A stretch of 64,000 bases of DNA from Azonexaceae bacterium (GTDB taxonomy: Bacteria; Pseudomonadota; Gammaproteobacteria; Burkholderiales; Rhodocyclaceae): positions 327,764 through 391,763 of the forward strand of contig JAAXVL010000001.1 in NCBI GenBank assembly GCA_013335535.1. Direction: 5' to 3'. Shown here piece after piece: positions 587 to 63,930 of the stretch. Every line of letters begins with the position of its first letter. Within the stretch, counting starts at the first letter, position 1. The notes under the pieces are model-generated. The model was given only the letters and a program-made list of their open reading frames with translations. It was not told where the DNA came from and searched no databases. The position numbers and the translations under genes are program-made.

Positions 587-1675
587 GTGACAGAGACCTT
601 TTACGAAGTGCTGCGCCGCCAGGGCATCACCCGGCGCAGCTTTCTCAAATTCTGCAGCCTGACCGCGACGTCGCTTGGGCTGGGCAGCGCCGCTGCACCG
701 CGCATTGCGCACGCGCTGGAAACCAAGGCGCGCACGCCGGTGATCTGGCTGCACGGGCTGGAATGCACCTGCTGCTCGGAGTCGTTTATTCGTTCGGCGC
801 ACCCGCTGACCAAGGATGTCGTGCTCTCCATGCTTTCCCTCGACTACGACGACACCCTGATGGCCGCCGCCGGCCACCAGGCCGAGGCAATCATCGAAGA
901 GGTCAAGAAGAAGTACAAGGGCAACTACATCGTTGCCGTCGAAGGCAATCCGCCGCTTAACGAGGACGGTATGTTCTGCATCCACGGCGGCCGGCCTTTC
1001 GTCGAAGTGCTCAAGGAAACCTGTGCCGACGCCAAGGCCATCATCAGCTGGGGGGCCTGCGCCTCCTACGGTTGCGTGCAGGCAGCCAAGCCGAACCCGA
1101 CGCGCGCCACGCCGGTGCACAAGGTGATTACCGGCAAGCCGATCATCAATGTGCCGGGCTGCCCGCCGATTGCCGAAGTCATGACCGGCGTCGTCACCTA
1201 CATGCTGACCTTCGACCGCATTCCCGAACTCGACCGCCAAGGACGCCCGAAAATGTTCTACGGTCAGCGCATTCACGACAAGTGCTATCGCCGCGGCCAC
1301 TTCGATGCCGGCCAGTTCGCCGAAGCCTGGGATGACGAAGGGGCGCGCAAGGGCTACTGCCTGTACAAGATGGGCTGCAAGGGGCCGACGACCTACAACG
1401 CCTGTTCCTCGATGCGCTGGAACGGCGGCGTGTCGTGGCCGGTGCAATCGGGCCACGGCTGTATCGGCTGTTCCGAAGAGGGCTTCTGGGACAAGGGCAG
1501 CTTCTATGACCGGGTGACCGACATCAAGGCTTTCGGTGTCGAGTCGAATGCCGACACCATCGGCAAGGCCGCCGCCGGTACGGTCGGCGCCGCGATTGCC
1601 GCCCATGCCGCGGTTTCGGCTCTGGCTCGCGCCCGCACTTCCCACGGTCAACCGGAAAAACAAGAGGAAAACTAA
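587..1675 (+). CDS. hupS: Membrane-bound [NiFe]-hydrogenase small subunit, Tat signal, O2-tolerant-type cysteine pattern
   Basis: RRSFLKF Tat motif; ECTCCSE and [16 protein letters not shown] start at 587 in frame with ORF 527..1675. Confidence 0.93.
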
Positions 1676-1676
1676 A
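1642..1676 (+). repeat. Dispersed 35-bp motif copy 1 (C-terminal codons of hupS)
   Basis: ccacggtcaaccggaaaaacaagaggaaaactaaa; 19-bp core perfect. Confidence 0.8.
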
Positions 1677-1677
1677 A

Positions 1678-5275: not shown

Positions 5276-5730
5276 GCCTCGAACTCAAAGCCGGCCCGAC
5301 CTCGCTCGAAAGACTCGAAACAGCCATCGGCCGATTACTGCAAAAACACGGCTTTTTTCGGGTTGACCGTGGCAACCCCGAATTTCCGGCCGGCCTGACC
5401 GCCCTGCTCCTCACCGAAGACCCGCAGCGCAATCTCGAAGTGCTCGACGCCTGCGTCATCCTGCCCGAAGCGCTCAAGCCGGCTGGCGAGCAGATTGCCC
5501 GCTGGGTGGCTGGCCCTGATTTCGCCGCGCCCCTCATGCAGCAATACGGCGTGCCGCGCGCGCCAGCCGTTGTCTTCCTGCGCGATGGCGCTTTTGTCGG
5601 CGTGCTCAACGGCATTCGCGACTGGAGCGAATACCAGAACGAAGTCGCCCGCCTGCTTACCGGCCCGGCCCAACCCAAGCCGATCGGCATTCCCGTTCGC
5701 GCTGCCGCCACGCAAGGAGCCTGTGCATGA
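5272..5730 (+). CDS. hupG: HyaE/HupG-family thioredoxin-like hydrogenase accessory protein
   Basis: ATG at 5272 overlapping hupF stop; conserved hup order; APAVVFLRDGAFVGVLNGIRDW. Confidence 0.82.
   Translation: MSLELKAGPTSLERLETAIGRLLQKHGFFRVDRGNPEFPAGLTALLLTEDPQRNLEVLDACVILPEALKPAGEQIARWVAGPDFAAPLMQQYGVPRAPAVVFLRDGAFVGVLNGIRDWSEYQNEVARLLTGPAQPKPIGIPVRAAATQGACA
5338..5372 (-). repeat. Dispersed 35-bp motif copy 2 (antisense inside hupG)
   Basis: Reverse complement ccacggtcaacccgaaaaaagccgtgtttttgcag; core with 1 mismatch, distal half degenerate. Confidence 0.6.
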
Positions 5731-9768: not shown

Positions 9769-12054
9769 ATGACCGGCCGCCTGTTCCGCATCCGCGGTCT
9801 GGTACAGGGGGTCGGTTTCCGTCCGTATGTCTGGCGGCTGGCCACCGAACTTGGTCTGACCGGCTGGGTGCGCAACGATGGCGCCGGGGTGATTGCCACG
9901 GTCAACGGGAAAAACTGGCCAGAATTCAAATCCCGCCTGCCGCTCGAAGCACCGCGTCTGGCCCGCATTGACGCCATTGAGGACGAAGCCGCCGAGGTGT
10001 CTGGCGAAGGCTTCGTGATCCTCGACAGTGAATCGGGTGAAATCAAAACCGCCATCGGCCCCGACGCCGCCATCTGTCCCGACTGCATTGCCGACATCTG
10101 CGACCCGGCCAGTCGCCGCTGGCGCTACGCCTTTACCACCTGTACGCACTGCGGGCCGCGCTACACCGTCAGCCGCCGGATTCCCTACGACCGGGCGGCG
10201 ACCAGCCTCGCCGCCTTCCCGCTCTGCCCGCCGTGCGATGCCGAATACCGCGCCCCGGCCGACCGCCGCTTCCACGCCGAAACCACCTGTTGCCCGGCTT
10301 GCGGTCCGCAACTGCGCCTGCTCGACGGCGCCGGTCAGCCGCTGGCCGGTGATCCGATCAGCGAAACCCTGCGCCTGCTGCGTGACGGCAAAATCGTCGC
10401 CATCAAGGGCCTCGGCGGCTTCCATCTCGCCTGCGACGCACGTAACGCGGCCACCGTCGCCGAACTGCGCGAACGCAAGCAGCGCGAGGCCAAGCCTTTC
10501 GCCGTCATGGGCCTGAATGCTGCCTCGCTGGCCGGCCATGCGCAGATTGGCGCCGCTGAGTCCGCGTTGCTGCACAGCGTCGCCGCGCCGGTCGTGCTCT
10601 GCCCCAAGGAGGCCGCCGGCCTGAAAGGTATCGCCCCCGGCCTTGCCTGGCTCGGTGCCATGCTGCCGGCGACGCCGCTCCACCTGCTGCTCTGGCACGA
10701 AGCCGCGGGCCGTCCGAGCGGTACCGACTGGCTGGCCGAGCCGAGTGACCTGCTGCTGGTCATGACCAGCGCCAACCCGCACGGCGAGCCGCTGGTCATT
10801 GCCAACGACGAAGCGTGCGAACGCCTGTCGGGCATCGCCGACGCCTATTTGCTGCATGACCGCGACATCGTCATCCGCTGTGACGATTCGGTCGTCCGCG
10901 CCGGCCCGGCCTTCATCCGGCGCGCCCGTGGCTACGTGCCGGTACCCGTTCCGCTGGCTGACGATGGCCTGACGACGCTGGCGCTGGGCGGCTACCTGAA
11001 GAACACGATCTGCCTCATGAAGGGCCGCGAAGCCTTCCTGTCGCAGCATATTGGCGGGCTCGACAACGCTGCGGCCATCGGCTTTCTCGAAGAAACGGTC
11101 GAGCACCTGCTGGCCATCCTCGATGTCCGGCCTGAGTGCATCGCCCACGACCTCCACCCCGATTTTCCGTCCACGCATCTCGCCGTTCGTCTGGCCGAAA
11201 AGCTTGGCATTCCCGCCATCGCCGTCGGCCATCACCACGCCCACATCGCTGCAATCTGCGCCGAACAGGGCGTCAACGAGCCGATCATCGGCCTGGCCCT
11301 CGATGGCGTCGGCCTTGGCCCGGATGGTGGCGCCTGGGGCGGGGAGTTGCTGCGTCTCGATGGCGCAAACTGCGAGCGCCTCGGCCACCTGAGCCCGCTG
11401 GCCATGCCGGGTGGCGACCGCGCGGCGAAAGAGCCGTGGCGCATGGCGGTTGCTGCTTTGCACGGCGCCGGCTTGGGCTACCGCGTCGGCGGCTGGATCA
11501 AGCAGTACTACCCGACACGCGACCCCGGCCCCCTGCTCACCATGCTCGCCCGCAATCTGCGCTGCCCGCCGACGACCAGCCTCGGCCGCTGGTTCGACGC
11601 TGCGGCCGGCCTGCTCGGCCTGCGCGACCTCATGGATTTCGAGGGGCAGGCGGCGATGGAACTGGAAGGATTGGCCGCCCAATACGGCCCGGTCGAGCCC
11701 CTGCCCGGCGGCTACGCCTTGCGCGAAGACGGCGCGGTCCTCGATTTTTCACCGATGCTGGCGACCCTGATGGGCTGCAAGGACGACGCCGCTCACGGTG
11801 CCGCGCTCTTTCACGCCACCGTCGCGGCCGGCTTGGCCGACTGGGCCATTGCCACGGTCAACCGGAAAAAAGGGCCAAAATTGAAAGGTGAAAAAATCGC
11901 CATTGGCGGCGGTTGTGCGATGAACGCCGTCCTGATGAGTGCACTGCGCCGTTGTTGCAATGCCGCCGGCCTCGAACTGCTCGAAGCCCGACAAGTGCCG
12001 CCCAACGACGGCGGCCTGTCACTCGGCCAGGCCTGGGTGGCCCGGCGGATGTAA
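9769..12054 (+). CDS. hypF: Carbamoyltransferase HypF
   Basis: Acylphosphatase domain GLVQGVGFRPYVWRLA, zinc fingers, YrdC and Kae1-like domains. Confidence 0.96.
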   Translation: MTGRLFRIRGLVQGVGFRPYVWRLATELGLTGWVRNDGAGVIATVNGKNWPEFKSRLPLEAPRLARIDAIEDEAAEVSGEGFVILDSESGEIKTAIGPDAAICPDCIADICDPASRRWRYAFTTCTHCGPRYTVSRRIPYDRAATSLAAFPLCPPCDAEYRAPADRRFHAETTCCPACGPQLRLLDGAGQPLAGDPISETLRLLRDGKIVAIKGLGGFHLACDARNAATVAELRERKQREAKPFAVMGLNAASLAGHAQIGAAESALLHSVAAPVVLCPKEAAGLKGIAPGLAWLGAMLPATPLHLLLWHEAAGRPSGTDWLAEPSDLLLVMTSANPHGEPLVIANDEACERLSGIADAYLLHDRDIVIRCDDSVVRAGPAFIRRARGYVPVPVPLADDGLTTLALGGYLKNTICLMKGREAFLSQHIGGLDNAAAIGFLEETVEHLLAILDVRPECIAHDLHPDFPSTHLAVRLAEKLGIPAIAVGHHHAHIAAICAEQGVNEPIIGLALDGVGLGPDGGAWGGELLRLDGANCERLGHLSPLAMPGGDRAAKEPWRMAVAALHGAGLGYRVGGWIKQYYPTRDPGPLLTMLARNLRCPPTTSLGRWFDAAAGLLGLRDLMDFEGQAAMELEGLAAQYGPVEPLPGGYALREDGAVLDFSPMLATLMGCKDDAAHGAALFHATVAAGLADWAIATVNRKKGPKLKGEKIAIGGGCAMNAVLMSALRRCCNAAGLELLEARQVPPNDGGLSLGQAWVARRM
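9896..9930 (+). repeat. Dispersed 35-bp motif copy 3 (inside hypF)
   Basis: ccacggtcaacgggaaaaactggccagaattcaaa. Confidence 0.85.
11852..11886 (+). repeat. Dispersed 35-bp motif copy 4 (inside hypF)
   Basis: ccacggtcaaccggaaaaaagggccaaaattgaaa. Confidence 0.95.
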
Positions 12055-12107
12055 ATATTCGGGTAGAGGCCAGCCGCCAGGGCTGTTCCATCCCGTCGCC
12101 GAACTTG

Positions 12108-12142
12108 CCACGGTCAACCGGAATATCGGCCCGAAATCGAAA
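12108..12142 (+). repeat. Dispersed 35-bp motif copy 5 (intergenic hypF-hybO)
   Basis: ccacggtcaaccggaatatcggcccgaaatcgaaa. Confidence 0.85.
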
Positions 12143-12267
12143 TGCCCAAGGCGTTCCGCTCTGTCCCAAATATCTACTCCCCAAGTCTGACAAGCGTCTG
12201 ATCACCTGAGCGCTCGAAGTGGAAAGGTGGCGCCCCGTTTTTTGCGGGTCGATTTTTACAAGCAATT

Positions 12268-15815: not shown

Positions 15816-17528
15816 ATGAACAAACGTGTCACCATCGACCCGGTCACCCGTATCGAAGGCCACCTCCGTGTCGACGTCGAAGTGGATGGCGGCCGCGTCA
15901 AGAAGGCCTGGGCTTCGGGCCAGATGTGGCGGGGCGTCGAGAACATCCTGATCGGTCGCGATCCGCGCGATGCCTGGGCGATCACCCAGCGCATCTGCGG
16001 CGTGTGCACGACGGTGCATGCCATGGCCTCGGTGCGTGCCGTCGAAAATGCGCTGCAGCTGGAAATCCCGGTCAACGCGCAGTACATCCGCAACATGATC
16101 ATGCTGGCCCACGCCGTGCATGACCATATCGTCCATTTCTACCACCTGTCGGCGCTCGACTGGGTCGATGTGGTCAGCGCCTTGAAGGCCGATCCGGCCA
16201 AGACGGCCAGCCTGGCCGAAAGCCTGTCCAACTGGAGCGGCAACAGCAAGGCCGAATTCACCAAGGTGCAGGAACGTCTGAAAGGCTTTGTCGGTACCGG
16301 GCAGCTCGGCATCTTTACCAACGGTTACTGGGGCCACCCGGCCATGAAGCTGACGCCGGAAGTGAACCTGCTCGCTGTCAGTCACTACCTGCAGGCGCTG
16401 GAAGTGCAGCGCTATGCCAGCAAGATCGTCGCCGTGCTCGGCTCGAAATCGCCGCATATCCAGAACGTTGCCGTTGGCGGCGTAGCCAATCCGCTGTCGG
16501 TCGATTCGCAATCAGTGCTGACGGTCGAGCGCCTGCTGGCGATCAAGGAGTGGATGCTCAAGCTCGAAGATTTCGTCAAGAACGTCTATCTGATCGACGT
16601 TGGCGCCATCGGCGGTTTCTATGCCGACTGGACCAAGTACGGCAAGGGCATCACCGACTACCTGTGCGTGCCGGACATTCCGCTCGACGGCAAGGGTACC
16701 CGGTTCGCGCTGCCCGGCGGCTACATCGAGGGCGGCAAGCTCGAGAGCTACAAGGCGATCACCAGCTTCAACGACCAGTACTTCACCGATGGTGTGTCGG
16801 AGGCGATCAAGCATTCGTGGTACGACTACAGCGCTGGCGATGACAAGTCGCTGCACCCGTACAAGGGCGAAACGACGCCGAACTACACCGACTTCCAGGA
16901 TGACGGCAAATACAGCTGGCTAAAGTCGCCGACTTTCTATGGCAAGCCGATGCAGGTCGGCCCGCTGCCGCGCGTCATGAACATGCTGGCCGCCGGCCAC
17001 GAACCGACCAAAAAGTACGCCACGGCAGCGCTCGATCTGGTGTCCAAGGTGGCCGGCGCCAAGGTCGGTGTCGATGCCCTGCATTCGACCATTGGCCGCC
17101 ACGCGGCGCGGGCCGTCGGCTGCGCGGTGCAGGTCGATGAACTGATCAACCAGTGGGACCTGCTGCTCGCCAACATGGCCAAGGGCGACCTCAAGACCTT
17201 CAACCGGCCGGTCTTCCCGAAGGGCGAGCAGATGGGCGTCGGTTTCCACGAGGCGCCGCGCGGCGTGCTGTCGCACTGGGTGGTCATCGACTCCGGCAAG
17301 ATCAAGAACTACCAGTGTGTCGTGCCGACCACATGGAATGCCGCGCCGCGCAACGAAAAAGAGCAGCCCGGCGCTTACGAGGCCTGCCTGATCGACAACC
17401 CGGTGGCCGATCCCGAGAAGCCGCTGGAAGTGCTGCGCACCGTGCATTCCTTCGACCCCTGTCTGGCTTGCGCCGTGCATGTGGTTGATCAGGAGAACAA
17501 CCCGGTGGTGACGGTGAAGGCGGTTTGA
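15816..17528 (+). CDS. hybC: Hyb-type [NiFe]-hydrogenase large subunit
   Basis: RICGVCTTVHAMAS; DPCLACAVH plus VVDQENNPVVTVKAV extension. Confidence 0.95.
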   Translation: MNKRVTIDPVTRIEGHLRVDVEVDGGRVKKAWASGQMWRGVENILIGRDPRDAWAITQRICGVCTTVHAMASVRAVENALQLEIPVNAQYIRNMIMLAHAVHDHIVHFYHLSALDWVDVVSALKADPAKTASLAESLSNWSGNSKAEFTKVQERLKGFVGTGQLGIFTNGYWGHPAMKLTPEVNLLAVSHYLQALEVQRYASKIVAVLGSKSPHIQNVAVGGVANPLSVDSQSVLTVERLLAIKEWMLKLEDFVKNVYLIDVGAIGGFYADWTKYGKGITDYLCVPDIPLDGKGTRFALPGGYIEGGKLESYKAITSFNDQYFTDGVSEAIKHSWYDYSAGDDKSLHPYKGETTPNYTDFQDDGKYSWLKSPTFYGKPMQVGPLPRVMNMLAAGHEPTKKYATAALDLVSKVAGAKVGVDALHSTIGRHAARAVGCAVQVDELINQWDLLLANMAKGDLKTFNRPVFPKGEQMGVGFHEAPRGVLSHWVVIDSGKIKNYQCVVPTTWNAAPRNEKEQPGAYEACLIDNPVADPEKPLEVLRTVHSFDPCLACAVHVVDQENNPVVTVKAV

Positions 17529-21758: not shown

Positions 21759-23450
21759 GTGCGAATTCTCCTCATTACACATAGCTTCAACGGCCTGACC
21801 CAGCGCCTTTATTGCGAGCTGGCGACGCTTGGCCACGAAATCAGCATCGAGTTCGACATCGCCGATGCAGTGACCGAAGAGGCTGTGGCCTTGTTCCGGC
21901 CCGATCTGATCATTGCGCCGTTTTTGAAACGGGCGATTCCAGAATCGATCTGGTCGCAGCATTGCTGCCTGATCGTTCATCCCGGCCCGGTCGGCGACCG
22001 TGGTCCGTCGGCGCTCGACTGGGCGATTCAGCTGGGTGTCAAGGAATGGGGTGTCACAGTGTTACAGGCCGAAGCAGAGATGGACGCGGGGCCGGTCTGG
22101 GCGTCGGCGACCTTTCCGATGCGGCCGGCGCGCAAGGCGTCGATCTACCGCAATGAAGTGACCGAGGCGGCCGTTCAGGCGGTGATTGCCACGGTCAACC
22201 GGAAAAATGAGCCAAATTTCAAAGCGGAGCGCGTACCCGGGCAAGCGCATGCGCTGATCAAGCAGGCCGACCGCGTCATCGACTGGCAGACCGAAACCAG
22301 TGCCGCTGTCCTGGCCAAACTCAATGCTGCCGATGGCTTTCCCGGCGTGGCCGACACCTTGTTCGGCCAGCCCTGTCATTTGTTCGACGCCTGGCCGGAA
22401 GCCTCGCTCAAGGGCGAGCCGGGCGCTTTGCTCGGCCGGCGTGAAACGGCCATTTGCCGAGCGACGGCCGATGGTGCGGTGTGGCTCGGCCACGTCAAGC
22501 CAGCGGGCGGCATCAAGCTGCCGGCGACGCAGGCCTGCCCGGAGGCGAACGAGTTGCCCGAGTTGCCGCTAACTGAGGGCTACTGGAAATCGCCGGTTCC
22601 CACCTGGCAGGACATCGCCTACGAGGAGGCCGAATGGAACGGAAATTCGGTCGGTTTCCTGAGTTTCGAGTTTTATAACGGCGCGATGAGCACGGCCCAG
22701 TGCCGACGGCTGACCGAAGCCTTCCGGTGGGCGACGGCGCGACCGACCCGGGTCATCGTGCTGCGTGGCGGCAGCGATTTCTGGTCGAACGGCATCCACC
22801 TCAACACCATCGAGGCCGCGGAGAGCCCGGCCGACGAGTCGTGGGCCAACATCAACGCCATCGACGATCTGGCCGAGGCCATTTTGCGCTGTGAAACGCA
22901 GTTGACCGTGGCGGCCGTAGGCGGCAATGCCGGTGCCGGCGGCTGCTTCCTGGCGCGTGCCGCCGATTTTGTCTGGGCCCGTGACGGCGTGATGCTCAAC
23001 CCGCATTACAAGAACATGGGTAACCTGTACGGTTCGGAATTCTGGACCTACCTGCTGCCTCCGCGCGTCGGCGAAGAGGGTGCGAAGGCCATCATGCGCC
23101 ACCGCCTGCCGATGACGGCGCCGGAAGCAGTGCAACTCGGCTTCTACGATGCCTGCCTGCCCGGTCCGGGGTTTCACGTCGATGTTGCCCGGCGTGCCGC
23201 CGAACTGGCCGCCGCGCCGGATTTCGCTGAAAAGCTCGCCGCCAAGCAGGCCAAACGCCATGCCGACGAAGCCGCCAAGCCGCTGGCCGCCTACCGTGCC
23301 GCGGAATTGACCGAAATGCGCCGCAATTTCTACGGCTTCGACCCCTCGTACCACGTCGCGCGCTATCATTTCGTCTCCCGCTCGGCGCATTCGTGGACGC
23401 CGCGCCACCTTGCCCGCCACCGCGATCTCGACTGGAAAGTTCCGGCATGA
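21759..23450 (+). CDS. hypX: HypX/HoxX (formyltransferase-like plus enoyl-CoA hydratase-like domains)
   Basis: MRILLITHSFNGLTQRLYCEL; HPGPVGDRGPSALDWAI; crotonase-like half. Confidence 0.93.
   Translation: MRILLITHSFNGLTQRLYCELATLGHEISIEFDIADAVTEEAVALFRPDLIIAPFLKRAIPESIWSQHCCLIVHPGPVGDRGPSALDWAIQLGVKEWGVTVLQAEAEMDAGPVWASATFPMRPARKASIYRNEVTEAAVQAVIATVNRKNEPNFKAERVPGQAHALIKQADRVIDWQTETSAAVLAKLNAADGFPGVADTLFGQPCHLFDAWPEASLKGEPGALLGRRETAICRATADGAVWLGHVKPAGGIKLPATQACPEANELPELPLTEGYWKSPVPTWQDIAYEEAEWNGNSVGFLSFEFYNGAMSTAQCRRLTEAFRWATARPTRVIVLRGGSDFWSNGIHLNTIEAAESPADESWANINAIDDLAEAILRCETQLTVAAVGGNAGAGGCFLARAADFVWARDGVMLNPHYKNMGNLYGSEFWTYLLPPRVGEEGAKAIMRHRLPMTAPEAVQLGFYDACLPGPGFHVDVARRAAELAAAPDFAEKLAAKQAKRHADEAAKPLAAYRAAELTEMRRNFYGFDPSYHVARYHFVSRSAHSWTPRHLARHRDLDWKVPA
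22189..22223 (+). repeat. Dispersed 35-bp motif copy 6 (inside hypX)
   Basis: ccacggtcaaccggaaaaatgagccaaatttcaaa. Confidence 0.92.
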
Positions 23451-24946: not shown

Positions 24947-25944
24947 AAGTGCTCTGGCTGCAAAGTGGCGGCTGCGGCGGCTGCACGCAGTCGATGCTGT
25001 GCTCGGAGCCGCGTTCGCTGTTCGACGAACTGCGCGATGCCGGCATCGAATTCCTCTGGCACCCGGCGCTCTCGGTCGACAGTGGTGAAGAAGCGCTCAC
25101 CCTTCTCGAAGACTGCGCTGAAGGGCGGCTCGCCTTCGATGCGCTGTGCATCGAAGGAGCGATGCTGCGTGGCCCGAACGGCACCGGCAAATTCCACCTG
25201 ATGGCCGGCAGCGGCCGGCCGCTGACCGAATGGGTCGAGCGCCTGGCGCGTCACGCCAAGTGGGTTTTTGCCATTGGTTCGTGCACGGCTTACGGCGGAT
25301 TCTCGGCCAACACGCCAGGCAATCCGCTCGAAGCCTGCGGCCTGCAGTTCGACGAACAGACACCGGGCGGCCTGCTCGGCACCGATTTCCAGTCGGCCGC
25401 CGGCCTGCCGGTGATCAACATCGCCGGCTGCCCGACGCATCCCGGCTGGGTCGTCGACACGCTGGAAAAAGTGGCGCTGGAAGGCATGGTTGCCACCGAC
25501 CTCGACGAATATGGCCGCCCGCTGCTCTACGCCGGCCAACTCGTCCACCACGGCTGCGCCCGCAACGAATATTACGAATTCAAGGCCAGCGCCGAAAAGC
25601 AGTCCGACCTCGGCTGCCTCATGGAAAACCTCGGCTGCAAGGGCACCCAGGCCCACGCTGACTGCAACCTGCGGCCGTGGAACGGCAGTGGTTCCTGCCT
25701 GCGCGGCGGCTTCGCCTGCATCGCCTGTACCGAGCCGGGCTTCGAGTCGCCCGGCCACGCTTTCCAGGAGACGCCCAAGCTGGCCGGCATCCCGATCGGC
25801 CTGCCGACCGACATGCCGAAAGCCTGGTTCGTCGCGCTCGCCGCCCTCTCCAAATCGGCGACGCCGAAGCGGGTGCGCAACAATTCGGTGGTCGATCACC
25901 CGGTCGTTTTGCCAGCCATTCGCAAGAAGGGCGGCGGCAAGTGA
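24943..25944 (+). CDS. hoxB: Regulatory (H2-sensing) hydrogenase small subunit
   Basis: No Tat signal; SGGCGGCTQSMLCSEP. Confidence 0.92.
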   Translation: MKVLWLQSGGCGGCTQSMLCSEPRSLFDELRDAGIEFLWHPALSVDSGEEALTLLEDCAEGRLAFDALCIEGAMLRGPNGTGKFHLMAGSGRPLTEWVERLARHAKWVFAIGSCTAYGGFSANTPGNPLEACGLQFDEQTPGGLLGTDFQSAAGLPVINIAGCPTHPGWVVDTLEKVALEGMVATDLDEYGRPLLYAGQLVHHGCARNEYYEFKASAEKQSDLGCLMENLGCKGTQAHADCNLRPWNGSGSCLRGGFACIACTEPGFESPGHAFQETPKLAGIPIGLPTDMPKAWFVALAALSKSATPKRVRNNSVVDHPVVLPAIRKKGGGK

Positions 25945-27359
25945 GCCGGATTGTCGTCGGGCCGTTCAATCGCGTCGAAGGCGATCTTGAAGTGACACTC
26001 GAACTCGACGCTGGCCGCATCGCGTCGGCCCAGGTCAATTCACCGCTGTTCAGAGGCTTCGAGCAGACTCTGGTGGGCCGCGCCCCGCTCGACGCCCTGG
26101 CCATCGTGCCGCGTATCTGCGGCATCTGCTCGGTTGCCCAGTCGGCGGCCGCCGCTGAGGCGCTAGCCGGGGCGATGGGCATCGTTCCCACGGTCAACGG
26201 GAAAATATCGCGAAAATTGATAACTGCGACCGAGAACCTGGCCGATCACCTGACGCACTTTTACCTCTTTTTCATGCCCGACTTCGCCCGCCCGGCCTAT
26301 GCCGGACGTGCCTGGCACGAGTCTGCGGTGCGCCGTTTTACAGCGGTCAAAGGCGATGCCGCCGCCGAGGTTCTGCCGGCCCGCGCCGGTTTTCTCCGGC
26401 TCATGGGTTTTCTCGCCGGCCGCTGGCCGCACACGCTGGCCATCCAGCCCGGCGGCAGCACGCGGGCGATCACCGCCGGCGAACGTATCCGCCTGCTGGC
26501 ACAGTTGCGCGAATTCCGCAGCTTTCTCGAAAAACGGCTGTTCGGCGACGCCCTGGCCAGCGTCGCTCAACTGGCCAGCAAGGAAGCCTTGCTGGCCTGG
26601 TCCGATGGACGCCTTGGCGATTTCCCCGCCTTTCTGAGCGCAGCGACCGATCTCGGTCTGGACAAGACGGGGGGTGCCTACGATGCCTTCCTGTCTTATG
26701 GTGCCTACGACCTGTTTCCGGCCGGCACCTGGCAAGCCGGGCAGGCCGCCGTCTTCGATCCGGTCGCCATCGATGAAGATACGTCCAGCGCCTGGCTGGT
26801 ATCCGGGCAGCCGCGCCATCCGGCGCAGGGTGAAACGGTCGTCGACGCCAACAAGCCCGACGCCTACACCTGGTGCAAGGCGCCGCGCTACGCCGGCCAG
26901 CCCTTTGAGGTCGGCGCCCTGGCCCGCCAGATCATTGCCTGTCATCCGTTGGCGCTCGACCTCGTGCAGCGCGACGGCGCCAGCGTCATGGCCCGTGTCG
27001 TCGCCCGCCTGCTTGAACTGGCCCTCGTCCTGCCGGCCATGGAAGCCTGGGTCCAGGCGCTGCAGCCCGGTGAGCCGTTCTGCGCCCATGGCACCATGCC
27101 CGACGACGCCACTGGCTCTGGTTTGGTCGAAGCCGCCCGCGGCAGCCTCGGCCACTGGCTGAGCATCAAACGCGGCCGCATCGAGCGCTATCAGATCATT
27201 GCCCCGACCACGTGGAACTTCTCGCCACGCGATGCCTCCAATCAGCCCGGCCCGCTCGAGAAGGCGCTTGTCGGCTTGCCCGCCGGCGAGGGCGCGCCAC
27301 CAACCGTTCAGCACGTCGTGCGCTCGTTCGATCCGTGCATGGTGTGTACCGTGCATTAG
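25941..27359 (+). CDS. hoxC: Regulatory (H2-sensing) hydrogenase large subunit
   Basis: GTG start; RICGICSVAQS; ends exactly at DPCMVCTVH* with no C-terminal extension. Confidence 0.94.
   Translation: MSRIVVGPFNRVEGDLEVTLELDAGRIASAQVNSPLFRGFEQTLVGRAPLDALAIVPRICGICSVAQSAAAAEALAGAMGIVPTVNGKISRKLITATENLADHLTHFYLFFMPDFARPAYAGRAWHESAVRRFTAVKGDAAAEVLPARAGFLRLMGFLAGRWPHTLAIQPGGSTRAITAGERIRLLAQLREFRSFLEKRLFGDALASVAQLASKEALLAWSDGRLGDFPAFLSAATDLGLDKTGGAYDAFLSYGAYDLFPAGTWQAGQAAVFDPVAIDEDTSSAWLVSGQPRHPAQGETVVDANKPDAYTWCKAPRYAGQPFEVGALARQIIACHPLALDLVQRDGASVMARVVARLLELALVLPAMEAWVQALQPGEPFCAHGTMPDDATGSGLVEAARGSLGHWLSIKRGRIERYQIIAPTTWNFSPRDASNQPGPLEKALVGLPAGEGAPPTVQHVVRSFDPCMVCTVH
26188..26222 (+). repeat. 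Dispersed 35-bp motif copy 7 (inside hoxC)
   Basis: ccacggtcaacgggaaaatatcgcgaaaattgata. Confidence 0.75.
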
Positions 27360-30289: not shown

Positions 30290-30442
30290 ATCGGGAAAAA
30301 TCAGTTGCCGGCGCTCATCCGGCCACTTTGCGGATTTGAGCGGAGGCACGGTAAGCAACGCGCAGAGTGGGAAATTCCGCCGCAAAATTTATGGCACTTG
30401 GGAGTACACTGCGCGGTTTGTATTTGCCTGTCCGGAATTCGA

Positions 30443-31381
30443 ATGAAGATACTGTTGGTGGATGATTCGCGAGCGATCGCGATGGTCATGCGAGCTCGAC
30501 TGGAGTCTTTCGGCTACGAGGTCAAGCATGCGATCAACGGTGAGATTGCACTTGATTTTTTCCAGGCAGAAAGCTTCGATCTGATCCTGATGGATATCGA
30601 GATGCCGGGCATGAACGGATTTGAGGTAACGACCCGGATTCGCGCCAAGGAGGGCATGGAGCCCTGGGCGTGGACGCCGATTATTTTCGTGACCGCGACC
30701 GATACCGACACCAATCTGGTGACGGCCATCGAAGCAGGTGGCGATGACTTCATTTCGAAAACCGTTCCCGAAAACGTGCTGCAGGCCAAGATGAAGGCCA
30801 TGTCGCGGATCGCGGCTTTGCGCTCCCGCCTGTGCGTGGCCAACGGCAAACTTCAGGACCAGGCGAATCGCGATGGCTTGACCGGCCTGCTCAATCGCCG
30901 CGCCATGGACATGCAGCTCGACTTCGCCTGGGAGCAGGCGCGGCATTCAGGGAAGCCGTTCAGTCTGTTGATGATCGACGTCGATAATTTCAAGAAATAT
31001 AACGACCATTATGGCCACCAGGCCGGTGACGATTGTCTGATAGCCGTTGCGGCCTGCCTGAGCGAGCGGATTCAACAGATCAACGACGACCGGACAGCGC
31101 CGGGGGCTTTTGTCGCCCGTTACGGTGGCGAAGAGTTTGCGGTGGTCATTCCTGATGCTCCGCCGGGTGTGCACGCTGGCGTGGCGGCCGGCCTGGTCGA
31201 GGCCGTCGCCGGTCTGGGTATTCCCCATGAAAAGAATTGCGACTTTGGTGTCGTGACCATTTCCGTTGGCGCCGCCGCCTTCCCGCACGCCATGGGTGCA
31301 GTCAAGGCGCTCTTCCGCCTGGCCGATGACCTGCTCTACAAAGCCAAGGATGCCGGACGCAACCGGGCGGAAGTGGCCTGA
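30443..31381 (+). CDS. Response regulator with REC and GGDEF domains
   Basis: MKILLVDDSRAIAMVMRARLES; YGGEEFAVVIPD. Confidence 0.92.
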   Translation: MKILLVDDSRAIAMVMRARLESFGYEVKHAINGEIALDFFQAESFDLILMDIEMPGMNGFEVTTRIRAKEGMEPWAWTPIIFVTATDTDTNLVTAIEAGGDDFISKTVPENVLQAKMKAMSRIAALRSRLCVANGKLQDQANRDGLTGLLNRRAMDMQLDFAWEQARHSGKPFSLLMIDVDNFKKYNDHYGHQAGDDCLIAVAACLSERIQQINDDRTAPGAFVARYGGEEFAVVIPDAPPGVHAGVAAGLVEAVAGLGIPHEKNCDFGVVTISVGAAAFPHAMGAVKALFRLADDLLYKAKDAGRNRAEVA

Positions 31382-31406
31382 GCAAAGCGGCCGGCGGGTT
31401 GTGAGA

Positions 31407-31441
31407 TTTCAAATTCAGGCGTTTTTTCCGGTTGACCGTGG
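31407..31441 (-). repeat. Dispersed 35-bp motif copy 8 (left arm of inverted pair)
   Basis: Reverse complement ccacggtcaaccggaaaaaacgcctgaatttgaaa. Confidence 0.95.
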
Positions 31442-31445
31442 CATG

Positions 31446-31480
31446 CCACGGTCAACCGGAAAAAACGGCCAAAATTGAAA
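31446..31480 (+). repeat. Dispersed 35-bp motif copy 9 (right arm of inverted pair)
   Basis: ccacggtcaaccggaaaaaacggccaaaattgaaa; 4-nt spacer to copy 8. Confidence 0.97.
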
Positions 31481-31537
31481 ATCCAGCCCATGCATTTGGT
31501 ATGCTTTGCCGCTAGTCCGGCCTGATACGCGCAACGC

Positions 31538-32323
31538 ATGAAGCAGACAACGACCTACTACGACTTGCTGGAAGTGGCCCCGCACGCCGATCTGGCTGAA
31601 ATCAGCAGCGCCTACCTGCGCCTGTCCCGCGAGCTGGGCTCGGCCGACAACCCGCTCGGGGCTGCCGAGGCAGCCTTTCGCCTGAAGCTGGTCAAGCACG
31701 CCTACGAAGTGCTTTCCAATCCGTCGCGGCGCTCGGATTACGATGCCGGCCTGACCACGCGCGGCAACGCACCCGGCGGGGCAGACCAGCCGCTGCACAT
31801 CGAAGTGGCGATGGAGCCAACGAAATGGAGCCCGATCCGCCGCTTGCTGACCATCATCGCCGGGCTGATGATCTTCGGCATGGTCATGCAGATCAGTGCC
31901 GTGTTCATGACCTACCAGCGGGCTTCAGCGCACGGTGGCGATCCCGCCTCGCCGGCGGCTGAAAAGATCTATCTCCAGGAGTTCTACCAGACCTATGGCA
32001 TTCGTGCCTTGAGCCGGGCCGAGGCGGATTTGCTGCTGGCCGACATGAAGCGCAAGGAGCAGGCCGAGCGTCAGGAAAGCCAGCAGCAGCGCCTTGTCGA
32101 ACAGCAAGAGCGCGAGCAGCGCCGCTTCGAGGAAGAGTCGCGCCGTCTGGGGGCCGAGGTTTCAGCCAATCTTCGGCGTGCCGAGCAGGAAGCCGAGGCC
32201 GCCAGGGCGGAAGAAATCCGCCGCAAGGAAGAGGCCGAGCGGCGGGCAAAAGAGGATGAACTGGCTCGTCGGCAGCGTGAGATTGAGCGTTTCCGTGGTC
32301 GTAGTTTTTCCTCTGGCGAGTGA
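31538..32323 (+). CDS. J-domain protein with TM and charged coiled-coil C-terminus
   Basis: TTYYDLLEVAPHADLAEISSAYLRLS...; J-domain-like. Confidence 0.8.
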   Translation: MKQTTTYYDLLEVAPHADLAEISSAYLRLSRELGSADNPLGAAEAAFRLKLVKHAYEVLSNPSRRSDYDAGLTTRGNAPGGADQPLHIEVAMEPTKWSPIRRLLTIIAGLMIFGMVMQISAVFMTYQRASAHGGDPASPAAEKIYLQEFYQTYGIRALSRAEADLLLADMKRKEQAERQESQQQRLVEQQEREQRRFEEESRRLGAEVSANLRRAEQEAEAARAEEIRRKEEAERRAKEDELARRQREIERFRGRSFSSGE

Positions 32324-34834: not shown

Positions 34835-34995
34835 GATGACTTCCTCCATGCGCTTTTAGACCGGTTAACGGATCCAGCGTGCTACGGCTTTAGTCAAGCA
34901 TATCCTGTTCCCGGTTTCGTCGACATGAACGCGAAGAAGCGCCGAATCGCTTGCCGGAAGGGGTTTGGCAGGTTTATCGATGACGCCGGAGGGGC

Positions 34996-35030
34996 TTTCG
35001 ATTTTGTCGGCTTTTTCCGGTTGACCGTGG
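34996..35030 (-). repeat. Dispersed 35-bp motif copy 10 (intergenic)
   Basis: Reverse complement ccacggtcaaccggaaaaagccgacaaaatcgaaa. Confidence 0.92.
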
Positions 35031-35063
35031 AAATCCGACAATTTGTGCTCCTGTTTGGCGCGT

Positions 35064-37390: not shown

Positions 37391-38711
37391 CCTGGCGGAC
37401 AGCTCGCCCCTGCCGCCCGGCGGCGAGCAGGCGTGGATCGAAGTCATCCAGAAAATGGACGAGGTCTATAACGACCTCCTGCAGTACGAAGTCGCCCTCG
37501 AAGAAAAGAACGCCGCACTCGAGGAATCGCACCAGTTCATCGAGAGCGTGCTCACCTCGATGTCCGACATCCTCATCGTCTGCGACCGCAACGGGGGGAT
37601 CGTCGAGGTCAATTCCTCGCTCCTGCATTTCTCCGGCAAGACGGCCGACGAACTTGAAAAGACAGCGGTCTTCGAGCTTTTTGCCGACGAGGTCGAAAAG
37701 GCCAAGGCGCGCGATATCTTCGCCCGTTTCGGCCGCGAAGGGATTCATGACTGCGAGTTTTTCCTGCGCGCCGGCGACGGTTCGACCGTGCCGGTGTCGA
37801 TGAACTGCACGCCGCGTCTGTCGCAGACTGGCAAACTCATGGGCATGGTCGTTACCGGCCGCCCGGTCGGCGAACTGCGCAAGGCCTACTCCGCGCTACG
37901 GCAGGCGCACGACGATCTTAAACGCACGCAAGGCCAACTCCTGCACGCCGAAAAGATGGTCTCGCTCGGCCGTCTGGTGGCCGGCGTGGCGCATGAACTC
38001 AACAACCCGATCAGCTTCGTGCTCGGCAACGTGCTCTCGCTCAAGCGCTACGCCAGCCGGCTCGAAAGCTATCTCAGCGCCGTGCACGCCAGCGATGCGG
38101 CAGACGATGCGGCGCTCAAGGCCATGCGCGACGAATTGCGCATTGACCGCATCCTGGCCGACATGCCGCACCTCATCGACGGCATGATCGAAGGCGCCGA
38201 GCGGACGCGCGATATCGTCGATGCGCTCAAGCGTTTTTCGGCCGTCGACAAGATGACGCCCGAGCAGGTCAGCCTCAACGAGGTCGTCGAGCGCTCGGTG
38301 CGCTGGGTCGTGCAGAGCGCAGCGGCCAAATTCACGGTCAACACGAATTTATCGCCAAATTTGAAATGTTCAGGGTCGTCCGGGCAGTTGCAGCAGGTCG
38401 TCATGAACCTCGTGCAGAACGCCTGCGACGCTACGGCTAGCCTGCCTGAGCCGAAGCTGAACATCACCGGCGACATCGAGGGAGGCATGGCCGTGCTGCG
38501 CTTTACCGACAACGGCCCGGGCATTCCCGAGGCCAACCTGAGCCGCCTGTTCGAGCCCTTCTTTACGACCAAACCGGTCGGCCAGGGTACCGGGCTGGGC
38601 TTGTCGATCAGCTACGGCATCGTCGAGCGGCACGGCGGTAAGCTCAGTGCGCGCAACGTGCCGGGCAATGGGGCGGAATTCGTTCTTTCACTTCCGGTGG
38701 AAGGTCGCTAA
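37365..38711 (+). CDS. hoxJ: PAS sensor histidine kinase HoxJ/HupT
   Basis: EVIQKMDEVYNDLLQYEVALEEKNAALEESHQFI; LVAGVAHELNNPISFVLGN; ATG overlaps nikR by 26 nt. Confidence 0.88.
   Translation: MSTTVPPADLADSSPLPPGGEQAWIEVIQKMDEVYNDLLQYEVALEEKNAALEESHQFIESVLTSMSDILIVCDRNGGIVEVNSSLLHFSGKTADELEKTAVFELFADEVEKAKARDIFARFGREGIHDCEFFLRAGDGSTVPVSMNCTPRLSQTGKLMGMVVTGRPVGELRKAYSALRQAHDDLKRTQGQLLHAEKMVSLGRLVAGVAHELNNPISFVLGNVLSLKRYASRLESYLSAVHASDAADDAALKAMRDELRIDRILADMPHLIDGMIEGAERTRDIVDALKRFSAVDKMTPEQVSLNEVVERSVRWVVQSAAAKFTVNTNLSPNLKCSGSSGQLQQVVMNLVQNACDATASLPEPKLNITGDIEGGMAVLRFTDNGPGIPEANLSRLFEPFFTTKPVGQGTGLGLSISYGIVERHGGKLSARNVPGNGAEFVLSLPVEGR
38332..38366 (+). repeat. Dispersed 35-bp motif copy 11 (degenerate, inside hoxJ)
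   Basis: tcacggtcaacacgaatttatcgccaaatttgaaa. Confidence 0.6.
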
Positions 38712-41818: not shown

Positions 41819-44095
41819 GTGGAAAAGGATCTGCGCGAAGCCGCACTCGAATACCATCGCTGGCCCACACCCGGCAAGATTTCAGTTCGCCCGACCAAGG
41901 GCCTGACTAATCAGCGCGACCTCGCGCTGGCCTACTCTCCGGGTGTTGCTGCCGCCTGCGATGCGATCGTCGAAGATCCGGCCACGGCCGCCTGGTACAC
42001 CTCGCGTGCCAACCTCGTCGGCGTCGTGACCAACGGCACCGCCGTACTCGGCCTCGGCAATATCGGCCCGCTGGCCTCCAAGCCGGTCATGGAAGGCAAG
42101 GGCTGCCTGTTCAAGAAATTCGCCGGTATTGATGTCTTCGATATCGAACTGGCCGAGAACGACCCGGACAAGCTCATCGACATGATCGCCGCCCTCGAGC
42201 CGACGCTCGGCGGCATCAACCTCGAAGACATCAAGGCGCCGGAATGCTTCTACATCGAAGAGAAGCTCAAGGCACGGATGAACATCCCGGTCTTCCACGA
42301 TGACCAGCACGGTACCGCGATCATTTCCGGCGCCGCCATGCTCAATGGCCTCAAGGTCGTCGGCAAAAAGATCGACGAGGTCAAGGTCGTCGTTTCCGGC
42401 GCCGGTGCGGCTGCCATCTCCTGTGTGAACCTGTGGTGCGATCTCGGCGTCAAGCGCGAGAACATCACCATTTGCGACTCGAAGGGCGTCATCTACGTTG
42501 GTCGTCCGGGTGGCATGGATGAAACCAAAGCCCGCTACGCCCAGAACACCGAGAAGCGCACGCTCGGCGAAGCGCTGGTCGGCGCCGATATCTTCCTCGG
42601 CCTCTCCGCTGCCGGCGTCGTCAAGCAGGACATGGTCAAGAGCATGGCCGACAAGCCCATGGTCTTCGCGCTGGCCAACCCGACTCCGGAAATCATGCCG
42701 GAACTGGTCAAGGAAGTGCGTCCGGATGCGATCATCGCCACCGGCCGTTCTGACTACGTGAACCAGGTCAACAACGTCCTGTGCTTCCCGTTCATCTTCC
42801 GTGGCGCACTCGATGTTGGCGCAACGCGCATTACCGAAGAAATGAAGATGGCCTCCGTGCGCGCCATCGCCGAGCTGGCCGAAGCTGAAGTGACCGACGA
42901 AGTGGCTATGGCCTATCCCGGTGCCGATTTGTCCTTTGGCCCGGAATACCTGATTCCCAAGCCCTTCGACCCGCGCCTGATTGTCAAGATCGCCCCGGCT
43001 GTCGCCAAGGCCGCCATCGATTCCGGTGTTGCGACGCGCCCGATCACCGACTGGGATGCCTATCGCGCCAAGCTGTCCGAGTTCGTCTATCACACCGGCG
43101 TCGGCATGCGCGCCATCTTCCAGGCTGCCCGTCAGGCCAAGGGCAAGCGCATCATCTTCGCCGAAGGTGAAGACGAGCGCGTCCTGCGCGCTGCGCAGGT
43201 GGTCATCGAAGAAAAGTTCGCGCGTCCGATCCTCATCGGTCGTCCGGGCGTCATCGAGCATCGTCTCGAAAAGGCCAAGCTACGCATCCAGCCGGGCGTC
43301 GACTTCGATGTCGTCAATCCGGAATCCGACGAGCGTTACCGCGAATGCTGGACCGCCTATCACAAGGCCATGGCGCGTCAGGGCATCACCCCGGCCATCG
43401 CCAAGGAAGCCATGCGTCGCAAGCCGACGGTCATCGGCGCCATGCTGCTCAAGCTGGGCTACGCCGACGGCATGATCTGCGGCATGACTGGTCAATACAG
43501 CCACCACCTCGGCGTGATTAGCCAGATCATCGGCAAGCGCTCGGGCGTCAGCACGCTGGCCGCGATGAACTACCTGATGCTGCCGGGTCGTTCCTTGTTC
43601 ATCTGCGACACGCATGTGAACGAAAATCCGAATGCTCAGGAAATCGCCGAAATGACGCTGATGGCGGCCGAACAGGTCAAGCGTTTCGGCAGCCATCCGA
43701 AGGTCGCGCTGCTCTCGCACTCCAATTTCGGTTCCGGCAACTCCGAGTCGGCACGCAAGATGAGTGTTGCCGCCGGGCTGGTCTCGGCCATGTCGGCCGG
43801 TGAGCTGGAAGTGGATGGCGAAATGCACGGCGACTCGGCGCTCAATGAAGACCTGCGCCGCGAAGCCAACCCGGATTCGCCGCTCAAGGGCGAGGCTAAT
43901 CTGCTGGTCATGCCCAACATCGACGCTGCCAACATCTCCTACAACCTGATCAAGATGACCGGTGGCGAAGGCGTTACCATCGGCCCCATCCTGCTCGGTG
44001 CGGCCCGTCCGGTGCATGTGCTGACCTCGACGGCCACCGTCCGTCGTCTGGTTAACATGACTGCGCTGGCGGTCGTGGAGTCCATGGAGCGCTAA
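41819..44095 (+). CDS. maeB: NADP-dependent malic enzyme with phosphotransacetylase-like domain
   Basis: Malic enzyme N-half plus PTA-like C-half; GTG start. Confidence 0.95.
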
Positions 44096-44107: not shown

Positions 44108-44144
44108 AAAAAGGCGCGGGAGGGAAACCTCTCCGCGCCTTTTT
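44108..44144 (+). terminator. Intrinsic terminator after maeB
   Basis: aaaaaggcgcgg...ccgcgccttttt, 12-bp arms including A/T tails. Confidence 0.85.
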
Positions 44145-44176
44145 CATTTTTGGCCGATTTTCCCGGTTGACCGTGG
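44142..44176 (-). repeat. Dispersed 35-bp motif copy 12 (abuts maeB terminator)
   Basis: Reverse complement ccacggtcaaccgggaaaatcggccaaaaatgaaa. Confidence 0.92.
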
Positions 44177-44197
44177 AAATACGGTTTAACCGGTGGC

Positions 44198-53895: not shown

Positions 53896-53897
53896 TG

Positions 53898-53932
53898 CCA
53901 CGGTCAACCGGAAAAATTGGTCAAAATTGAAA
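53898..53932 (+). repeat. Dispersed 35-bp motif copy 13 (2 bp upstream of apaH start)
   Basis: ccacggtcaaccggaaaaattggtcaaaattgaaa. Confidence 0.95.
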
Positions 53933-53939
53933 TGTCCGC

Positions 53940-57890: not shown

Positions 57891-59149
57891 TGGCGCGTTT
57901 CTTCTATTCAGAGCTGCTTTATCTGATCACGCCGCTGATCTGGCTTCGTCTGCTCTGGCGCAGCCGCAAGCAGCCGGAATATCTCCAGCACCTCGGCGAG
58001 CGCTACGGCTTCTATCGCCAGCCGGCGCCGGCCAAGCTGATCTGGGTGCATGCCGTCTCGGTCGGTGAAACCCGCGCTGCCCAACCGCTCATCGAAGGCT
58101 TGCAGGCGCGCTGGCCGGAACATTGCATCCTGCTCACCGGCATGACGCCGACCGGTCGCGATGCCGGGCAGCAGGTCTATGGCGACAAGCTGATTCAGGC
58201 CTATTTACCCTACGATTACCCCGGCGCGGTCGATCGGTTCTTCCGCCATTTTTCGCCAGCTTTCGGTGTGCTCATGGAAACGGAGATATGGCCCAATCTG
58301 TTGGCCGCCGGGAAGCGCCGCAAGGTGCCGATCTTTCTCGCCAACGCGCGGCTTTCGGCACGTTCGGCCCGCGGCTACCGGCGGTTCTCGGCCTTGGCCG
58401 GCCCGGCGTTTTCGGCACTGGCCGGTGTCGCGGCACAAACGGCGGGTGATGCCGAGCGGATCGCCGAATTGGGCGCGACTCCGGTTGAGGTTTGCGGCAA
58501 CCTGAAATTCGATGTCACCCCGCCTGCCGACAAGCTTGCCCTCGGCCGCGAATGGCGGGTGGCGATTGGCCGGCGTCCGGTCTGGCTCGCCGCCAGCACG
58601 CGTGAAGGCGAGGAACCACTGGTCCTCGAGGCATTCCGCAAGGCGGCCGTTGCTGATGCCTTGCTCGTTCTGGTACCGCGTCATCCGCAGCGCTTCGATG
58701 AAGTGGCCGATTTGCTCCAGCAGCAGGGGCTGCGCACAGTCCGGCGCAGTGCGGCCTTGCCGATGGCTGATACCGAGGTTTGGCTCGGCGACAGCATGGG
58801 TGAGATGGCAGCCTATTTCACGCTGGCCGATCTGGCTTTCATTGGCGGCAGCTTGCTGCCGCTCGGCGGGCAGAATCTGATCGAGGCGGCGGCCTGCGAC
58901 TGTCCGGTCGTTGTCGGGCCACACACCTTCAATTTCAAGCAGGCGACCGAGGATGCGATTGCCGCGGGCGCCGCTTTGCGCGTCGTCAACCCGGAAATGC
59001 TCGCTTCCACGGTCAACCGGATTTTTGGCCAAAAAATGAAATTGGTGGAAATGCGAACAGCGGCGGGAACGTTCGCCCGCGCCCATCAGGGTGCGGCTGA
59101 GCGGATGCTGGGGCTTATAGTGCGCTGGATGGGTCGAGCAGGGCGTTGA
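57890..59149 (+). CDS. waaA: 3-deoxy-D-manno-octulosonic acid transferase
   Basis: LIWVHAVSVGETRAAQPLIE; FIGGSLLPLGGQNLIEAAA. Confidence 0.95.
   Translation: MARFFYSELLYLITPLIWLRLLWRSRKQPEYLQHLGERYGFYRQPAPAKLIWVHAVSVGETRAAQPLIEGLQARWPEHCILLTGMTPTGRDAGQQVYGDKLIQAYLPYDYPGAVDRFFRHFSPAFGVLMETEIWPNLLAAGKRRKVPIFLANARLSARSARGYRRFSALAGPAFSALAGVAAQTAGDAERIAELGATPVEVCGNLKFDVTPPADKLALGREWRVAIGRRPVWLAASTREGEEPLVLEAFRKAAVADALLVLVPRHPQRFDEVADLLQQQGLRTVRRSAALPMADTEVWLGDSMGEMAAYFTLADLAFIGGSLLPLGGQNLIEAAACDCPVVVGPHTFNFKQATEDAIAAGAALRVVNPEMLASTVNRIFGQKMKLVEMRTAAGTFARAHQGAAERMLGLIVRWMGRAGR
59007..59041 (+). repeat. Dispersed 35-bp motif copy 14 (inside waaA)
   Basis: ccacggtcaaccggatttttggccaaaaaatgaaa. Confidence 0.85.
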
Positions 59150-63671: not shown

Positions 63672-63798
63672 CTTGCTTCCCTCTTTTTCTCTTTGAATTC
63701 TGGCGCTTGTCGACGATATTTCGGCTGGTTTCGAGAATTCTTGAGTGCATTTTGTCATTCCTTGCATTTTGCCTGTATTTCCAGTAACTTGCAGCCTC

Positions 63799-63877
63799 TC
63801 GTTAGGGGTGCCCGACTCGATTCGGGCTGAGAATCACCCTTCGAACCTGACCGGGTCATGCCGTCGTAGGGAAACGA
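63799..63877 (+). promoter_or_regulatory. TPP (THI-box) riboswitch
   Basis: aggggtgccc...cgggctgagaatcacccttcgaacctgaccgggtcatgccgtcgtagggaa; TCGTT/AACGA P1. Confidence 0.93.
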
Positions 63878-63930
63878 ACTTTGTTGCTCCTTGCCCGTCT
63901 TACCCCGCTGCATCCACGCAAGGAATAACC

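Follow-up and report, generated by a model that had tools for sequence, protein, structure and literature searches.

Two head-to-head copies of a dispersed 38-nt motif, a putative DNA-uptake signal, form a hairpin beside a J-domain gene in an Azonexaceae bacterium

Introduction

To our knowledge, Pasteurellaceae and Neisseriaceae are the only families in which DNA-uptake sequences are established, and the uptake receptor of Pasteurellaceae is still unproven. Such sequences are associated with a dedicated minor-pilin receptor (ComP; ComN/PpdA have been proposed). The Pasteurellaceae sequences (USS; AAGTGCGGT in Hin and ACAAGCGGT in Apl) contain AT segments centred 12 nt apart (PMC1626085), and their extended forms are eHin-USS, AAAGTGCGGTCAATTTT, and eApl-USS, AACAAGCGGTCAAATTT (PMC12616744). 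In both USS and the DUS of Neisseriaceae (ATGCCGTCTGAA), perfect cores outnumber singly mismatched ones, and the classic density is roughly 1 per kb (PMC1626085). The terminator pairs of Neisseria and Pasteurellaceae have a +- configuration, in which A's are located upstream and T's downstream; Neisseria contains 226 +- pairs and 1892 copies, from which we calculate a paired share of ~23% (PMC1852404).

The open-access literature searched yielded no report of uptake sequences for Rhodocyclales, Dechloromonas, or Azonexus. Here, we describe an inverted repeat from a 64,000-nt stretch of DNA of an Azonexaceae bacterium (hereafter the window), which corresponds to positions 327764-391763 of contig C1 of a 4.25-Mb genome. 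A sequence-only reading of the window had proposed that the repeat is a terminator derived from a dispersed motif.

Structure of the inverted repeat

The inverted repeat at 31406-31481 is composed of two complete 38-nt copies of a dispersed motif arranged around a CATG loop. The locus contains the following features:

31406..31443, minus strand: left motif copy (38 nt), scoring 59 bits against the profile; its head (CCACGG) faces 31443
31444..31481, plus strand: right motif copy (38 nt), scoring 61 bits against the profile; it directly adjoins the left one, head-to-head
31442..31445: CATG loop, to which both copies contribute their -3/-2 positions (TG / CA)
31420..31467: RNA stem of 22 bp without interruption, closed by a 4-nt loop (CG-T6-CCGG...CCGG-A6-CG)
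31422..31427, plus strand: T6 tract in the 5' half of the stem; in transcripts of either strand, the U-run comes before the hairpin
31460..31465, plus strand: A6 tract in the 3' half of the stem, in the place of the T's required by a terminator
30305..31381, plus strand: gene of a REC-GGDEF response regulator / diguanylate cyclase, upstream of the pair
31538..32323, plus strand: gene of a J-domain (DnaJ-type) protein, downstream of the pair, beside which it stays in relatives

The pair lies ~25 nt past the stop codon of the REC-GGDEF gene (31381), where 26 bp had been counted previously, and 57 nt ahead of the J-domain gene (31538). The arms (31407-31443 and 31444-31480, 37 nt each) are 89% complementary, and their core, CCGGTTGACCGTGG-CATG-CCACGGTCAACCGG, occupies 31428-31459. 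The z-score of the RNA fold is -7.8 for the plus strand (31382-31537) and -11.2 for the minus strand (31400-31487). The sequence-only reading was correct in placing a head-to-head pair of motif copies, able to form a long hairpin with a CATG loop, between these two genes. The 35-bp inverted repeat that it described holds as an alignment of motif copies, but not as perfect pairing, which ends after 22 bp.

In a search of the window against Rfam, no family matched at the pair; the sole family detected is a TPP riboswitch at 63794-63889 on the plus strand (66 bits). The window also contains three different [NiFe] hydrogenase large subunit genes (PF00374) within 26 kb, at 1678-3474, 15816-17528, and 25677-27359.

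The dispersed motif in the home genome

The 38-nt motif, TTGCCACGGTCAACCGGAAAAAnGGCCAAAATTGAAAT, has the profile consensus atTGCCACGGTCAACCGGAAAAAa.gGCCAAAATTgAAAT over 38-39 conserved positions, as determined from 864 kb of contig C1. The conservation extends from position -4 to 34, and A/T tracts are located at positions 13-18, 24-29, and 31-34. The 19-mer CCACGGTCAACCGGAAAAA has 12 matches in the window with at most three mismatches, compared with 0.04 expected. In addition to the pair and to a copy that serves a neighbouring hairpin (see below), the profile identifies these single copies:

1640..1677, plus strand: single motif copy
5337..5374, minus strand: single motif copy
9894..9931, plus strand: single motif copy
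11850..11887, plus strand: single motif copy
12106..12143, plus strand: single motif copy
22187..22224, plus strand: single motif copy
26186..26223, plus strand: single motif copy
34995..35032, minus strand: single motif copy
38330..38367, plus strand: single motif copy
53896..53933, plus strand: single motif copy
59005..59042, plus strand: single motif copy

The 864 kb of contig C1 contain 219 profile sites, as opposed to 1 in the reversed control, and extrapolation from this sample gives a total of ~1000 copies per genome, or ~1 per 4 kb. Genome-wide, the 14-mer CCACGGTCAACCGG occurs 808 times with at most two mismatches (control, 74). Their spacing is more regular than that of randomly placed sites (CV 0.70; the lowest value among 2000 random simulations was 0.79). 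There are 162 perfect 10-mer cores and 155 with one mismatch, of which 90 are left after subtracting the control of 65, and 92 perfect 14-mer cores versus 68 with one mismatch (control, 2).

The statistics on gene context rest on 864 kb of one contig and on gene calls made with a simple codon-pair script rather than a standard gene finder. Intergenic cores account for 97 of the 219 (44%), though intergenic DNA makes up only ~7%. Between convergent genes, intergenic copies reach a density of 4.5/kb, compared with 1.5/kb for co-directional neighbours and 0.75/kb for divergent (promoter) regions. Between co-directional genes, 43 copies are closer to the upstream stop and 14 to the downstream start, and their orientation is unbiased (28 versus 29). 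The 122 coding cores (56%), 68 on the same strand as the gene and 54 on the opposite one, prefer one codon phase.

A motif with this distribution might be the binding site of a chromosomal protein, such as a nucleoid-associated protein, a segregation protein, or a global regulator, and not an uptake signal. Helically phased A-tracts like those of the motif are typical of bent-DNA sites, and the copies on contig C1 exhibit a strand bias of 137 to 82 in the 864 kb sampled. However, the bias has no consistent relation to GC skew, more than half of the copies are located within genes on both strands, and the intergenic copies avoid the divergent promoter regions. Considering also that the motif drifts between species as dialects and is missing from 36 of 77 congeners, as described below, such a binding site is unlikely. 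A KOPS-like replication-polarity element was rejected, because the C1 strand bias does not track GC skew.

Distribution and dialects of the motif

Among 200 genomes of the family, which represent 68 genera, the motif is enriched in the home genus only and in none of the other 67 genera. The degenerate core YRCGGTCRAC reaches at least twice the control in 41 of the 77 congeners, with a maximum of 2440 versus 227, and 36 of the 77 lack clear enrichment. Within the genus, the motif forms species-specific dialects in which two AT tracts, spaced by 11 nt, follow YRCGGTCRAC. The dialect cores of congeners were derived from unsupervised k-mer counts, which yielded the related yet different cores TTCACGGTCGAC in species G148 and GCTGCGGTCGAC in G062, and no core in G112. 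The congener profiles were refined with strict settings; a low threshold drifts to codon periodicity. Aligned copies from G148, G062, and G178 share the plan att-core-(3-5 nt)-A tract-GG(CC)-AAATT.

A 12-nt palindrome, ACGGTCGACCGT, forms the dialect core of G148 (L060-L079), which also contains another abundant repeat around CTTCCGGGGCTTCC.

The high copy number and strong consensus would also be expected of a mobile or copied REP/MITE-like element spread by a transposase. It is very improbable that the motif is such an element: in the home genome it is non-palindromic and no terminal repeats were seen, many copies are located in frame inside genes with a preferred codon phase, and its sequence drifts as one dialect per species. 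Furthermore, a recently inserted 33.7-kb element in comEC, the one element analysed, contains 0 copies, compared with ~8.5 expected.

Head-to-head pairs and transcription termination

Across the genus, 28 head-to-head pairs are present in 12 species, versus 7 tail-to-tail pairs, whose long spacers leave space for the motif tails. The gap between the 10-mers is 5-7 nt in 20 of the 26 head-to-head pairs examined, several of which represent one locus in different species, so that the 26 are not independent events; in the others, it reaches up to 17 nt. Spacers (loops) of 4-5 nt are in excess, and 24 of the 26 pairs are intergenic, mostly 10-50 nt past stop codons and often between convergent genes. 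In the home genome, the exact 14-mer pair with a spacer of 0-30 nt occurs four times and the reversed pattern 0 times, and three close head-to-head pairs were seen in the 864-kb sample, where ~0.2 would be expected by chance. Such pairs are over-represented directly after stop codons. Together, the spacer excess and the location after stops suggest some selection on the hairpin itself.

The preference for closely spaced head-to-head pairs past stop codons is compatible with a bidirectional transcription terminator built from the repeat, as in Neisseria and Haemophilus. The pair is a very stable, GC-rich hairpin downstream of a gene end, and a terminator scanner predicted no terminator on the plus strand between the REC-GGDEF and J-domain genes. 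However, the -+ orientation, opposite to that favoured in Neisseria and Pasteurellaceae, puts T's upstream and A's downstream, so that there is no U-tract on either strand. The sequence following the stem is AAAAAACGGCCA on the plus strand and AAAAAACGCCTG on the minus strand, with AAAAAA in place of a U-tract in both directions. The earlier proposal that the A-tract and T-tract can act in either direction fails, because both strands are transcribed as U6-stem-A6. None of the 52 tails of the 26 pairs has five or more T's in its first 8 nt, and the tails contain on average 4.3 A's and 1.25 T's. In addition, there are only 6 pairs among the ~1000 copies in the home genome, which corresponds to ~1% of copies being paired as against ~23% in Neisseria; the arms show no extra complementarity; and ordinary hairpin-plus-T terminators are used elsewhere in the genome.

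The pair is not supported as an intrinsic terminator of the Neisseria/Haemophilus type, and a bidirectional terminator made from the repeat is quite unlikely.

Single reversed copies as donors of U-tracts

A different contribution of the motif to termination is apparent downstream of the gene at 41819-44095:

44110..44142, plus strand: GC hairpin, a canonical terminator stem independent of the motif, after the gene at 41819-44095
44141..44178, minus strand: single motif copy that provides the hairpin at 44110-44142 with a U-tract through its reversed AT tail, TTCATTTTTGG

Reversed copies downstream of gene ends are positioned directly after a GC hairpin in 12 of 55 cases, compared with 11 of 164 copies elsewhere (p=0.004). 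At the pair located at C45:77954 (L034), an ordinary hairpin-plus-T terminator just upstream uses the tail of the left arm. As judged from sequence, single reversed copies do help termination, with their T-rich tail as the predicted U-tract of the adjoining GC hairpin. The term repeat-derived terminator therefore fits this genome, but by way of single copies and another part of the motif.

The region G000:C1:253784-255569 contains three near-identical units in 1.8 kb, each formed by a GGCGCAG...CTGCGCC hairpin and a reversed copy as the U-tract.

The pair locus in congeners

A pair is present at the J-domain locus in five species (the home genome G000, G222, G211, G245, and G241), with differing loops. 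The pair of G241 has one base changed in the left core, and the upstream gene differs in G211, G245, and G241. There is one copy only at this locus in G234 and no copy in G243, G244, and G112. The arm-to-arm identity of pairs is 0.76, versus 0.79 for random intergenic copies, and that of the tails is 0.55 versus 0.68. Since paired arms are no more alike than random copies, there is no sign of selection for complementarity beyond the motif; an origin of the pair by snap-back duplication or hairpin selection was rejected on the same grounds.

The position of pairs just past stops and the spacer excess leave room for a role of the hairpin at RNA 3' ends, for which a U-tract is not required. The pair could be a REP-like stabiliser or processing hairpin, selected besides, or in place of, uptake, with Rho stopping downstream and exonucleases trimming back to the stem. 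The strong stem and the favoured 4-5 nt loop agree with this function, but the arms diverge beyond the shared core in the manner of independent motif copies, and the pair remained with the J-domain gene while the gene upstream, the mRNA of which would be protected, varied by species. We consider this role a tentative possibility.

Competence genes and candidate receptors

The comEC gene of the home genome is split by the 33.7-kb element, which has a GC content of 51.5% versus 62% (G000:C33:109525-144033, L180-L182). The left end of the element carries the gene of a large serine recombinase, and the insertion lies within the comEC reading frame, just past the HLMSI codons. A second species (G252:C1:2218607-2251879) has its comEC split at this model position as well. 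Unless the element can excise, the home genome is unlikely to be transformable at present. The interruption of comEC counts against the reading of the motif as an uptake signal, as do its lower density than that of classic USS/DUS, the strand bias on contig C1, and the congeners in which enrichment is not clear.

As presence/absence markers of the motif, comEC, which is kept in 52 of 52 good-quality congeners, and GspH/FimT, which is likewise non-discriminating, were rejected. Because nearly all congeners keep comEC and 36 of the 77 lack clear enrichment, the motif does not simply track this gene.

There are 16 type IV pilin-like genes in the home genome. A PDB sequence search with one lone pilin matched only generic pilins. 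Four pilin-like genes with the N-methylation motif are clustered at G000:C28:151991-154448, where exact motif copies are located at 152841 and 153492; this cluster is a possible place of a candidate receptor.

Discussion

We infer that the dispersed motif is a putative USS-like DNA-uptake signal in a betaproteobacterium. In common with USS and DUS, it is over-represented, has an excess of perfect copies, is found in coding sequence on both strands, occurs in lineage dialects, and is depleted in recently acquired DNA, as observed in the one 33.7-kb element. The pair at 31406-31481 probably represents two independently maintained copies of this motif placed head-to-head. The parallel to DUS and USS drawn in the sequence-only reading gains from the dispersal, dialects, and layout, and the evidence for it is now stronger than the sequence alone had provided.

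The motif resembles the Pasteurellaceae USS in its asymmetric core followed by two 3' AT segments about one helical turn apart (AT tracts at 13-18 and 24-29, with the same layout in three further species), as well as in its lineage dialects, many coding copies, and excess of perfect cores. The differences are that the host is a betaproteobacterium, the motif is 38 nt long, the core is extended to CACGGTCAACCGG, the density is ~1 copy per 4 kb instead of 1 per kb, and the pairs are head-to-head with A-tails. The distance from the core to the first AT tract exceeds that of Haemophilus by ~5 nt, which makes the layout similar rather than identical. With respect to the USS core ANNNGCGGT, the TGCGGTCRAC dialects match GCGGT(CAA), whereas G000 and G148 carry CACGGT. 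The dialect core TGCGGTCAAC and the extended USS have GCGGTCAA in common, a likeness that was noticed post hoc and does not prove common descent.

The Neisseriaceae DUS are similar in their coding and intergenic dispersal, inverted pairs after genes, and species-specific dialects within one betaproteobacterial lineage (PMC3630211, PMC1852404). In contrast to the motif described here, DUS are unrelated in sequence, have no flanking AT segments, and form many +- terminator pairs, compared with the few pairs of opposite configuration in the home genome. The USS/DUS hairpin terminators (Kingsford 2007, PMC1852404) likewise consist of close opposite copies past genes, enriched between convergent genes; here, the orientation is reversed, the tail is an A-tail rather than a T-tail, and U-tracts come from single copies.

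If the motif is an uptake signal, a surface receptor belonging to the type IV pilus/competence machinery would bind it and bias uptake towards same-lineage DNA. Through point mutation and transformation-driven selection, copies would build up where the sequence is free to vary, mostly just past stop codons. Two copies that come to abut head-to-head would give a transcript with a strong 22-bp hairpin, not a usual intrinsic terminator. The likeliest role of the hairpin in RNA, if any, would be to protect the upstream mRNA or to mark how far back Rho-terminated transcripts are trimmed. The part of single reversed copies in termination would be a different one, in which a neighbouring hairpin obtains its U-tract from their T-rich tail. 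The pair may serve as a natural control, as it contains two full copies in the wrong polarity, which makes the pairing of motifs separable from terminator function.

We lean towards the view that the genus of this bacterium, in the Azonexus/Dechloromonas group, is a third lineage with self-recognising uptake, the core and two-AT-tract plan of which match the Pasteurellaceae USS and not the DUS. If so, either a receptor mechanism is shared across classes, having been transferred or retained, or the sequences converged owing to the kinking of DNA at the outer-membrane pore. A USS-like system in dozens of environmental species, with dialects and with species that lack the motif, would make the coevolution of receptor and motif testable, and would reveal whether uptake mechanically requires the layout with two AT tracts.
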